DNA of 54,264 bases from Bacteroidota bacterium (GTDB taxonomy: Bacteria; Bacteroidota; Bacteroidia; CAILMK01; JACPUW01): positions 1 through 54,264 of the forward strand of contig JACPUW010000040.1 of NCBI GenBank assembly GCA_016192035.1, given 5' to 3'. Below are positions 488-54,264 of the stretch, piece after piece (positions within the stretch are counted from its first letter, which is position 1; each line of letters begins with the position of its first letter). The notes beneath the pieces were generated by a model. The model had not been told where the DNA came from, did no database searches, and was given only the letters and a program-made list of their open reading frames with translations. A program made the position numbers and the translations under genes.

Positions 488-563
488 TCGGGATGACTGG
501 ATTCGAACCAGCGACCCCACGCCCCCCAGACGTGTACTCTAAACCGGACTGAGCTACATCCCG
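488..563 (-). tRNA. trnP: tRNA-Pro (anticodon GGG)
   Basis: The minus strand folds into a full cloverleaf. The acceptor CGGGATG (557-563) pairs with CATCCCG, with discriminator A at 488. The D arm is GCTC/GAGT. The anticodon stem CACGT/GCGTG encloses loop CTGGGGG, giving anticodon GGG with G37, as expected for proline. The T arm is GCTGG-TTCGAAT-CCAGT. C1 pairing with G72 is also typical of bacterial tRNA-Pro. The 3' CCA is not encoded (the next bases are CCG), so it must be added after transcription. Confidence 0.95.
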
Positions 564-13115: not shown

Positions 13116-14508
13116 AATAGAAAAAGACAGTTTAGGTGAAGTACGGGTGCCCGCCGATAAATATTGGGGCGCCCAAACCCAACGCTCCCTTGAAAATTTC
13201 AAGATTGGAGGCATACCCATGCCCATTGAAATCATCAAGGCATTTGCCGTTCTTAAAAAAGCTGCGGCCATTACCAACTTAGGCTTGGCAGGTTTCCCTA
13301 AAGAAAAAGCAGACCTGATAGGCAGGGTGGCCGACGAGATTATTTCCGGTGCCCTTGATGACCAATTCCCCCTGGTAGTGTTTCAAACCGGATCGGGCAC
13401 ACAGTCCAATATGAACGTGAATGAGGTTATTGCCAACCGTGCCCATGTGTTGGCAGGGGGTTCACTTGGCGATTCCAAAAAAATGCTCCACCCCAACGAT
13501 GACGTGAACAAATCACAGTCATCAAATGACACCTACCCCACTGCCATGCATATAGCTCTCTATACCAGTGTAGTAGATATATGTCTGCCGGGAATACGTA
13601 CCCTGCGCCACACCCTACATGAAAAAGCCAACGAGTTTATGGATGTGGTAAAAATTGGCCGCACCCACTTTATGGATGCTACCCCCCTAACCCTGGGACA
13701 AGAGTTTAGCGGCTATGTGTCACAGCTTGACCACAGCATCAAAGCCATAGAGAATTCCTTGGCCCACTTGGCAGAGTTGGCACTCGGCGGCACCGCAGTT
13801 GGCACCGGCCTCAACACGCCTGATGGTTACGCTGAAAGGGTTGCGAAGGAAATAGCCGGGTTGACCGGTTTCCCTTTTGTTACCGCCCCCAACAAGTTTG
13901 AAGCCCTGGCAGCACATGATGCGGTGGTAGAAACCGCCGGCGCGCTTAAACGCGCGGCAATAAGCCTTATGAAGATTGGCAACGATATACGCATGTTGGC
14001 CTCAGGCCCGCGCTGTGCCATAGGCGAAATCAATATCCCATCAAACGAGCCGGGGTCTTCTATCATGCCCGGAAAAGTTAATCCTACTCAATCAGAAGCC
14101 CTTACCATGGTCTGTGCCCAAGTTATTGGCTGTGAGGCAGCGGTGGCGGTGGGCGGATTGTCGGGGCATTTTGAATTGAATGTGTTTAAACCCGTCATGG
14201 CCTACAACGCCCTATTGGCCTCCCGACTTCTTGGTGAGGCTTGTTTGTCATTTAATGAGCACTGTGCCCTGGGCATAGAGCCCAATCGCGACCGCATTGC
14301 CATGCACCTGAACAATAGTTTTATGCTGGTGACCGCCCTAAACACCAAAATTGGGTATGACAACGCAGCCAAAATTGCCAAAAAGGCCCATGCCGAAAAC
14401 AAGACCCTAAAACAGGCGGCAGCCGAGCTAGGCTTGGTAAGCGAAACCGATTTTGACCAGTGGGTAAGGCCCGAACAAATGGTAGGCAAGATCCTACCTC
14501 TGAGCTAA
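13105..14508 (+). CDS. fumC: Class II fumarate hydratase
   Basis: FumC reversibly hydrates fumarate to malate in the citric acid cycle and needs no iron-sulfur cluster. The 467-residue protein has the family's full length and motifs: [16 protein letters not shown] near the start, [44 protein letters not shown] and the signature [16 protein letters not shown]. The start lies inside the end of the DUF2480 gene, an 11-base overlap in another frame. A 7-bp stem-loop follows in the gap to mrp. Confidence 0.97.
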
Positions 14509-51240: not shown

Positions 51241-53103
51241 TTACCGGCCAAGATACACCATTAGCACAGACACATCAGCGGGGCTAACACCACTTATTCG
51301 CGATGCTTGGCCTAGGTTTCCCGGTTTCATCCTTGTCAATTTTTCCCTTGCTTCTGACGAAAGCCCCTTTATTGATTCATAGGAGAAACCTGGCTGTATC
51401 CTCACCTTTTCAAGCGCCCCCAGTTTCTTGGCAAACTCCCTTTCTTTTAGTATGTAGCCGGCATATTTCAGTTGTATCTCGGCTTCTTCCAGCACATTGG
51501 CGGTGAACTGCCCCAAGTGTTCATTTAGGCTGGGCAAGCCGTGGAAACAGGCCTGCAGGGTGAGTTCGGGACGGGAAAGCAGGGATGCGAACTTCACCTT
51601 CTGCGAGAGGGGCGACGAACCTTCATGAGCCAGAAAAGCATTGTATTCCAATGGGTCACAGCTTATTTCTTGCATCATGGATAGCACTTTCATTACGCGT
51701 TCTTCCTTTATATCAAGTGTTTTTACCCTTTGCTCCGATGCAAGTCCCACCCTATGCCCTATACGCGTGAGCCGCGAATCGGCATTGTCCTGGCGCAATA
51801 GTATTCTGTATTCGGCCCTGGAAGTAAACATCCTATAGGGTTCTTCGGTGCCCTTGGTTACCAGGTCATCAATCAAGACTCCGATATAGGCCTCGTCCCT
51901 GCCCAATACCAGGCCTTCCTCTTCCTTTACTTTTCTGGCCGCATTGATTCCTGCCATTAAGCCCTGGGCTGCGGCCTCTTCATATCCTGTGGTGCCGTTT
52001 ATTTGGCCCGCAAAGAATAAGCCACCCACGAGATGGGTTTCTAGGGTAAGTGCCAATTGAACGGGTGGAAAGTAATCGTATTCAATGGCATAACCAGGCC
52101 TGAACAGCTTGGCGTTTTCAAATCCAGGTACCAATCGCAGGGCTTTGAATTGTATGTCGTCAGGCAGGGATGTAGAAAATCCGTTCACATACACTTCAAT
52201 GGTATTCCGCCCTTCAGGCTCAATAAAAATTTGGTGCCTATCTCGTTCGGCAAACCGATTGATCTTATCCTCTATAGAAGGGCAGTATCGGGGTCCAAGT
52301 CCCTGGATACGACCGTTGAACATAGGTGATTTATCAAACCCTTCCTTTAGTACATCGTGTACCTTTTGGTTTGTATAGGTTATGTGGCAGCTCCTTTGGT
52401 CCGTGAGCAGGGGGGTATCTGTAAAAGAGAAGCGTCCGGGGTTTGCATCCCCCTTTTGTTCTTCAGTAGCTGCGTAATTGATGGTCCGTCCGTCCACGCG
52501 GGGAGGGGTGCCGGTTTTCATCCTTCCCGATTCAAAACCTAAAGCTTCAAGCTGGGCAGTGAGGCCTGTTGATGCGCGTTCACCCATTCGGCCCCCGCCA
52601 AACTGTTTTTCACCCACGTGAATAATGCCATTGAGAAAGGTACCGCTAGTGATAATAACCGTTTTAGAATAAAATTGAATACCAAGTTGGGTACTCACCC
52701 CTTCTACCCTATTGTCGTTCACCAACAAGCCAACTGCCATATCTTGGAAAAAATCCACATGGCCATTTTGCTCCAATGACCACCGCCACTCTTCGGCAAA
52801 CCTCATTCGGTCGCTTTGAGCCCTTGGGCTCCACATGGCTGGCCCTTTGCTTTGGTTGAGCATCCTAAATTGTATCATGGTCTTGTCGGTTACTATTCCC
52901 GACATACCACCCAACGCATCGATTTCACGCACAATCTGGCCTTTGGCCACCCCGCCCATGGCAGGGTTGCACGACATTTGGGCTATCACACCCATGTTCA
53001 TGGTGAGCAGTAGGGTTTTACAACCCATGGTACCGGCGGCGTGCGCGGCTTCACAACCTGCATGGCCTCCGCCCACCACTATCACATCATACTTTTCGTA
53101 CAT
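51241..53103 (-). CDS. mnmG: tRNA uridine-5-carboxymethylaminomethyl modification enzyme MnmG (GidA)
   Basis: MnmG, with MnmE, makes 5-carboxymethylaminomethyl-uridine at tRNA position 34 using FAD, NADH and a folate carrier. The 620-residue protein is full length: VIVVGGGHAGCEAAHAAGTM (FAD site), NPAMGGVAKGQIVREIDALGG, GRMGERASTGLTAQLE, MKTGTPPRVDGRTINY, ITYTNQKVHDVL, RYCPSIEDKINRFAERDRHQ (in part), LFFAGQINGTTGYEEAAAQG and FTSRAEYRILLRQDNADSRLT (in part). A parS-like palindrome lies 12 bases before the start. mnmG is often close to the replication origin, which agrees with the parS cluster beyond it. Confidence 0.97.
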   Translation of the reverse strand: MYEKYDVIVVGGGHAGCEAAHAAGTMGCKTLLLTMNMGVIAQMSCNPAMGGVAKGQIVREIDALGGMSGIVTDKTMIQFRMLNQSKGPAMWSPRAQSDRMRFAEEWRWSLEQNGHVDFFQDMAVGLLVNDNRVEGVSTQLGIQFYSKTVIITSGTFLNGIIHVGEKQFGGGRMGERASTGLTAQLEALGFESGRMKTGTPPRVDGRTINYAATEEQKGDANPGRFSFTDTPLLTDQRSCHITYTNQKVHDVLKEGFDKSPMFNGRIQGLGPRYCPSIEDKINRFAERDRHQIFIEPEGRNTIEVYVNGFSTSLPDDIQFKALRLVPGFENAKLFRPGYAIEYDYFPPVQLALTLETHLVGGLFFAGQINGTTGYEEAAAQGLMAGINAARKVKEEEGLVLGRDEAYIGVLIDDLVTKGTEEPYRMFTSRAEYRILLRQDNADSRLTRIGHRVGLASEQRVKTLDIKEERVMKVLSMMQEISCDPLEYNAFLAHEGSSPLSQKVKFASLLSRPELTLQACFHGLPSLNEHLGQFTANVLEEAEIQLKYAGYILKEREFAKKLGALEKVRIQPGFSYESIKGLSSEAREKLTRMKPGNLGQASRISGVSPADVSVLMVYLGR

Positions 53104-53114
53104 ACAATTTCAAT

Positions 53115-53130
53115 TGTTCCACGTGGAACA
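53115..53130. promoter_or_regulatory. parS: parS-like ParB-binding site upstream of mnmG
   Basis: TGTTCCACGTGGAACA is a perfect 16-bp palindrome. It differs from the classical parS (TGTTTCACGTGAAACA) by one symmetric pair; from memory the GTTCCACGTGGAAC form is used by some bacteria, including Pseudomonas. The same 16-mer occurs at 54060 and 54159. Here it occupies the leader or promoter region of mnmG. Confidence 0.75.
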
Positions 53131-53172: not shown

Positions 53173-53607
53173 TTATAGTCCGGCGGCATCTTCCAATGCA
53201 TGAATGTCAAGCTTAGACATTTTGAGCATTGCACTCATTACATTATTGGCACACAGTGGGTTATTCAAAAGTCTGGGCAATATAACGGGTACTACTTGCC
53301 AAGATACACCAAACTGGTCTTTGAGCCAACCGCATCTTCCTTCTTGTCCTCCATTCTCAGTGAGCTTGAGCCAGTAATAATCCATTTCGGTTTGAGTTTC
53401 ACAATCTATCACCAAAGAAATTGCCTCTGTGAATGCTTTGTTGGGCCCACTATTGAGGGCCATAAACTTCCTCCCATCCAGTGTAAATGAAACCACCATT
53501 GAGTTTTTCCCGGTAATGAAAGAATCCTTAAAAACGCTGCAATAAAATATGGCAGCTTCATAGGCACATTGATTAAACCATAAACATGGGTAAATGGGGT
53601 TGATCAT
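53173..53607 (-). CDS. VOC family protein (PhnB-like)
   Basis: A 144-residue protein of the vicinal oxygen chelate fold, PhnB/3-demethylubiquinone-methyltransferase-like subgroup. It begins NPIYPCLWFNQCAYEAAIFY, continues SMVVSFTLDGRKFMALNSGP with the conserved LNSGP-type turn, then WLKLTENGGQEGRCGWLKD and FGVSWQVVPVIL, the standard closing of the group. Members are not true methyltransferases and have no settled reaction. A TAGCTTTG element lies about 36 bases upstream on the same strand. It stands alone between mnmG and the repeat region. Confidence 0.9.
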   Translation of the reverse strand: MINPIYPCLWFNQCAYEAAIFYCSVFKDSFITGKNSMVVSFTLDGRKFMALNSGPNKAFTEAISLVIDCETQTEMDYYWLKLTENGGQEGRCGWLKDQFGVSWQVVPVILPRLLNNPLCANNVMSAMLKMSKLDIHALEDAAGL

Positions 53608-53651: not shown

Positions 53652-54008
53652 CGAGAAGCGGTACACGGTTAATCCGCATTAATGAAAGCCCGGCAGGGTT
53701 ATTCCAAACCGGTACCAATACACAATACAGGCCTGCCCATTCTTCTTTTGGGGTATTGGCCATGTTATGTTGGGTTCGCTTGTGATCCTTTGTTCCGAGA
53801 TACCACAACCTTTACCAAACACCACGCCCCTATGAAAGAGCAATGCCCCAACTAAGGCCCATGCAAGTTTCACTTACTGCTATTGAATTGAAATATCAGC
53901 CAGGATAAAACCAGTGTGATACCAAACACCACTTTTAATAACAGGAAGTGGGAAAGCAAATTATATCAAATCACTCCAGGCATCTCCTAAAACAAAAACC
54001 AGAAAGTA
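53652..54008. other. Non-coding interval before the parS repeat array
   Basis: About 350 bases in which I see no convincing gene. A minus-strand frame at 53679-53873 opens with a hydrophobic stretch but has no recognisable continuation. No DnaA-box (TTATCCACA-like) cluster was seen, so the origin itself is probably outside the window. Confidence 0.5.
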
Positions 54009-54059
54009 ATAGCAATGGCGATTGGCAATCGTTCAACCGGCCCTGTCCTAATCTTTCAT

Positions 54060-54075
54060 TGTTCCACGTGGAACA
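54060..54075. promoter_or_regulatory. parS: parS-like site, repeat unit 1
   Basis: TGTTCCACGTGGAACA, identical to the site upstream of mnmG. Confidence 0.8.
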
Positions 54076-54158
54076 CTTGACAACGCAGTACCCAAAACCG
54101 GTAAATCATAGCAATGGCGATTGGCAATCGTTCAACCGGCCCTGTCCTAATCTTTCAT

Positions 54159-54174
54159 TGTTCCACGTGGAACA
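54159..54174. promoter_or_regulatory. parS: parS-like site, repeat unit 2
   Basis: TGTTCCACGTGGAACA, exactly 99 bases after the unit 1 site. Confidence 0.8.
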
Positions 54175-54257
54175 CTTGACAACGCAGTACCCAAAACCGG
54201 TAAATCATAGCAAGGGCGATTGGTATGGGTTCAGCCCGCCCTTTCCCTATCTTTCAT

Positions 54258-54264
54258 TGTTCCA
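54258..54264. promoter_or_regulatory. parS: parS-like site, repeat unit 3 (cut by window end)
   Basis: TGTTCCA, the left half of the palindrome, again 99 bases on. The remainder lies beyond the window, so the array continues. Confidence 0.65.

Follow-up and report, generated by a model that had tools for sequence, protein, structure and literature searches.

A tandem array of at least ten parS palindromes in the ybeY-mnmG gap of a Bacteroidota genome, probably an origin-proximal chromosomal centromere

Palindromes beside mnmG and on a second contig

The window, by which we mean the whole stretch of 54,264 nucleotides that was analyzed, comes from contig C40 (JACPUW010000040.1) of a Bacteroidota assembly of 2.98 Mb in 44 contigs. 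Toward its right-hand end lies mnmG (gidA), a gene of 620 aa (51241..53103, minus strand; Pfam GIDA, 5.5e-160) and a conserved neighbor of the parS locus of this class. A lone copy of the 16-mer TGTTCCACGTGGAACA begins 12 bp upstream of the start of mnmG (53115..53130), as the earlier note had seen, and relatives have a parS site in the corresponding position. The window then ends in 2.7 units of a 99-bp repeat, the mnmG-side end of a tandem parS array that is broken off by the contig end (TRF: 53995..54264, period 99, 2.7 copies, 91% matches, score 442). An exact search placed perfect TGTTCCACGTGGAACA palindromes at 54060..54075 and 54159..54174, followed by the first seven bases of a further copy at 54258..54264, where the contig end cuts off the rest. 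No strand is assigned to any of these repeat features. The last three sites are 99 bp apart, and both their positions and this spacing had been noted earlier. Between the array and mnmG is a gene of 144 aa (53173..53607, minus strand; Pfam 3-dmu-9_3-mt, PF06983, 1.2e-35), which we take to be PhnB/glyoxalase-like. It had no match in the parS loci of relatives and is probably unrelated to the centromere. Rfam returned only a tRNA gene in the window (488-563, minus strand) and no match in the array.

Across the whole assembly, 12 intact sites match the 16-bp palindrome pattern TGTTNCACGTGNAACA, of which 11 are perfect TGTTCCACGTGGAACA and one carries a single mismatch. Base composition predicts 0.0007 exact copies per 2.98-Mb genome, compared to the 11 observed, and a reversed control pattern gave zero copies in the whole assembly. 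The palindrome is identical to parS2 and parS3 of P. aeruginosa (PMC4368675). Judged by its sequence, TGTTCCACGTGGAACA is the canonical chromosomal-type parS palindrome, which bears out the parS identity proposed in the earlier note.

The same note had proposed following the array past 54264. It resumes on contig C24, where seven further sites lie at 13202-13810 with spacings of 99, 98, 99, 99, 99, and 99 bp. This part of the array (C24 13202-13825) begins at the 3′ end of ybeY (Pfam YbeY, 2e-17), and the window end, once reverse-complemented, shows this unit in matching orientation. Relatives have ybeY next to mnmG, with parS in between. Most likely, the ends of C24 and C40 are the two halves of one ybeY-mnmG array, and we infer this join because relatives keep ybeY, parS, and mnmG together. 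The simplest reading of the break is that the assembler split the array because its units are near-identical. The spacer adjoining the truncated site at 54258 is unlike that of the last C24 unit, so the outermost C40 unit is distinct and the array has at least 10 sites: seven on C24 and three on C40 (two of them intact, the third truncated), with the copy at 53115 counted separately. This copy number is a minimum and depends on the join between C24 and C40.

Given that join, 10 of the 12 intact sites are inside the ybeY-mnmG interval. The sites are thus clustered, and the even spread around the chromosome that the earlier note had named as counting against its reading was not found. The other two sites are in a repeat common to the ends of contigs C28 and C43. 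Here, an identical stretch of 134 bp with one parS site occurs at two contig ends (C28:11218-11351 and C43:7-140), and the genes that follow it differ, being xseA on C43 and a thioredoxin/TlpA-like gene on C28. This could be a further repeat that carries parS and occurs twice, a strain rearrangement, or a branch in the assembly.

The locus in relatives and the replication origin

Sites matching TGTTNCACGTGNAACA were found in 38 of the 60 genomes searched, this one included, and the other genomes have zero to three each. In parS-bearing relatives, most of the sites examined adjoined mnmG or fell within the ybeY-mnmG gap. On the other side, the only same-genus relative (81% complete) had no exact-consensus parS. 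The class has a common chromosomal parS locus, and it lies in the ybeY-mnmG gap.

The earlier note had placed the array at the edge of an origin-type region, and support for this comes through relatives. G045 is a near-complete relative with a main contig of 2.85 Mb, and it carries a pair of parS sites between ybeY and mnmG (1,347,048-1,347,768). Its cumulative GC skew in the surrounding 160 kb has a minimum at 1,345,000, ∼3 kb or less from the parS pair, and skew sampled along the contig is negative before the minimum and about zero or positive after it. The ybeY-parS-mnmG locus is therefore tied to the origin in this relative. In the window and C24, GC skew is weak and fragmentary, with no sign switch at the array, and does not locate the origin of this genome. 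The dnaA gene and DnaA boxes that the earlier note had looked to near the array were not there: dnaA is on a separate contig, C34, and no cluster of DnaA boxes was found in the window, C24, C28, C43, or C34. Hi-C work has shown that dnaA is not always a marker of the origin (PMC10197239). The ybeY-mnmG gap probably marks the origin where dnaA, on another contig here, does not. Separately, positions 10000-13825 of C24 have GC skews of +0.30 and +0.17 (2.5-kb bins), with the rest of the contig near zero, and this segment of very strong skew covers a gene with CHU_C (type IX secretion signal) that immediately precedes ybeY and the array.

Conservation, partition genes, and alternative explanations

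When the units were aligned, variant cells numbered 1 of 151 in the 16-mer and 115 of 748 in the spacers. Invariant columns made up 15 of 16 in parS vs 39 of 83 in the spacers (Fisher p = 0.0006, as a guide only since the units share descent). The only variant 16-mer is TGTTCCACGTGAAACA at C24 13597, described as the optimal parS of B. subtilis (PMC8299390). The parS locus could be real and yet have grown passively, as a minisatellite does, by slippage or unequal recombination; copy number would then be without function, and recent duplication or homogenization would explain why the palindromes look conserved. The near-identity of the units at 54060 and 54159 over 99 bp would fit such a history, as would the sufficiency of a single parS for segregation in other species (PMC4368675; PMC7083940). 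However, mean pairwise divergence is 0.23 in the spacers and 0.0125 in the 16-mer, and any stretch of 16 spacer columns has at most 11 invariant columns, compared to 15 in parS. Homogenization by itself would not be expected to leave a single stretch of 16 bp untouched, which argues that the palindromes are kept by selection, as had been suggested from the window alone; this conservation says nothing on whether the exact copy number matters. Passive growth is unlikely but keeps appreciable weight. The more specific claim that the first half of the third unit had drifted while its parS half was kept needs refining: the spacer has drifted, but only seven bases of that palindrome are inside the window.

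A second possible explanation is that ParAB has truly been lost and that the array is a relic or is read by another DNA-binding protein. The parA and parB genes that the earlier note had proposed looking for did not turn up: ParB (TIGR00180, PF02195), whether plasmid or chromosomal, and ParA were not found in the assembly, and no match to ParB in it was convincing even at E ≤ 1. The assembly was scored 100% complete, and ParB was above cut-off in 56 of the 60 genomes searched. In the relatives inspected, parA is followed by parB, a small membrane-protein gene (which we read as DUF5683-like), dapB, and lepB, with Sua5 next in several. The assembly likewise gave no DapB, LepB, or long Sua5; positive controls worked for LepB and Sua5, and the DapB search was run without one. 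With these three members of the usual block missing as well, the absence of parAB points to a missing contig. One unbinned contig probably accounts for all of these absences, while loss of ParAB alone does not. A relic would also not be expected to keep its 16-mers intact, and true loss is very unlikely. As a side observation, a marker-based completeness of 100% can miss a whole contig, here with parA, parB, dapB, lepB, and the long Sua5 absent.

Even spacing had led the earlier note to compare the array to a plasmid-like centromere. On that reading, it would derive from a low-copy replicon, integrated or separate, carrying partition genes of its own. Iterated sites are familiar from plasmid centromeres such as sopC of the F plasmid, in which evenly spaced repeats are bound by a ParB-type protein. 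The array shares the even spacing of sopC but differs from it in site sequence, and sopC has adjacent partition genes and is plasmid-borne. The location in the conserved chromosomal ybeY-mnmG gap, the parS locus shared by the class, largely refutes this origin. In addition, the array has the chromosomal consensus, scans of the assembly gave neither a plasmid nor a chromosomal ParB, and similar arrays elsewhere adjoin chromosomal parAB or mnmG. The comparison had relied on chromosomal parS sites being mostly scattered single copies, but according to published work, sites are clustered in most bacteria and widely scattered only in few lineages, among them Bacilli (PMC8357415). Many chromosomes were seen to carry clustered or tandem parS. 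A plasmid-type centromere is extremely unlikely. Scarcely credible is a repeat peptide (FHVEQ/FHVEH type) coded by the 99-bp unit, with the palindrome as part of the code. The period is divisible by 3 (33 codons), and one frame stays open through the units seen in the window and through some four units of C24, but the 98-bp unit shifts the frame, stops break it in the C24 half, and spacers are unrelated at the sites of relatives such as G011. The coding reading was rejected on the first two of these grounds.

A chromosomal centromere and its known counterparts

We are confident that the array is an origin-proximal chromosomal centromere in the ybeY-mnmG gap, in which a 99-bp unit has been tandemly duplicated to at least 10 copies, with one more copy by mnmG. 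In ParABS systems, ParB clamps are loaded at each parS site, slide onto neighboring DNA, and build the partition complex that ParA moves. For the array, chromosomal ParB, a CTP-dependent clamp, would load at each palindrome, slide into the flanking DNA, and bridge DNA into a partition complex, and ParA would separate the duplicated origins. With more parS sites, clamps would be expected to load faster and the complex to be stronger and more condensed. In vitro, DNA condensation by ParB needed five to seven parS copies and was stronger with their number (PMC8299390). In C. glutamicum, one parS suffices, and several sites have been proposed to add robustness (PMC7083940). Tentatively, copy number here may vary as in a minisatellite and determine how strong the partition complex of ParB is, lying above the in vitro condensation threshold of five to seven sites, with relatives at three sites or fewer; we regard this extension as rather doubtful. 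The locus does offer a natural comparison for why bacteria keep many parS sites though one suffices, with at least 10 tandem sites vs zero to three exact-consensus sites in relatives at the same locus.

The array belongs to an already known kind of chromosomal centromere, as a tandem case with a high copy number. In Myxococcus xanthus, 22 parS sites lie within 3 kb of the chromosome, and ParB bound this cluster in vitro (PMC3899335). It is likewise a dense chromosomal cluster in the origin region with near-identical palindromes (consensus TGTTCCACGTGGAACG, ∼140 bp apart on average), but it lies ∼4 kb upstream of parA, whereas the array here is in the ybeY-mnmG gap (PMC3899335). A scan of GTDB contigs, which took in spacings of 85-115 bp only and so gives lower bounds, found at least 116 contigs with three parS sites 85-115 bp apart. 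Among the matches listed, many contigs had parAB or mnmG nearby, and some were true tandem arrays with similar spacers. The tandem arrays among them include L100 (15 sites, 36 bp), L108 (nine sites, 57 bp), L105 (six sites, 43 bp), and L095 (∼107 bp). These resemble the present array in their head-to-tail parS units and similar spacers, and some adjoin parAB, but they are from other phyla and have other periods, which makes them independent expansions.

Within the Bacteroidota, three of the 395 sampled genomes had three sites so spaced, i.e., two of 394 besides this one. This genome has five such overlapping triples, and each of the other two has one. The copy number of the array is exceptional within the phylum. 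The same locus and consensus, with one to six sites, were seen in Flavobacterium (L113, L161), Echinicola (L122), and the relatives G011, G012, and G045. The Flavobacterium and Echinicola loci have four to six sites in the ybeY-mnmG gap, and all of these Bacteroidota loci have fewer sites than the array. The DNA between sites is unrelated in L113, L122, and L161 (identity 0.31-0.50), in contrast to the tandem copies of C24 (0.72-0.94). Other Bacteroidota loci (L230 in G298, L231 in G437, L161, and L194) have three to six parS sites in or beside the ybeY-mnmG gap. Their spacers were unrelated where checked, which we read as sites having been gained repeatedly at a single locus.
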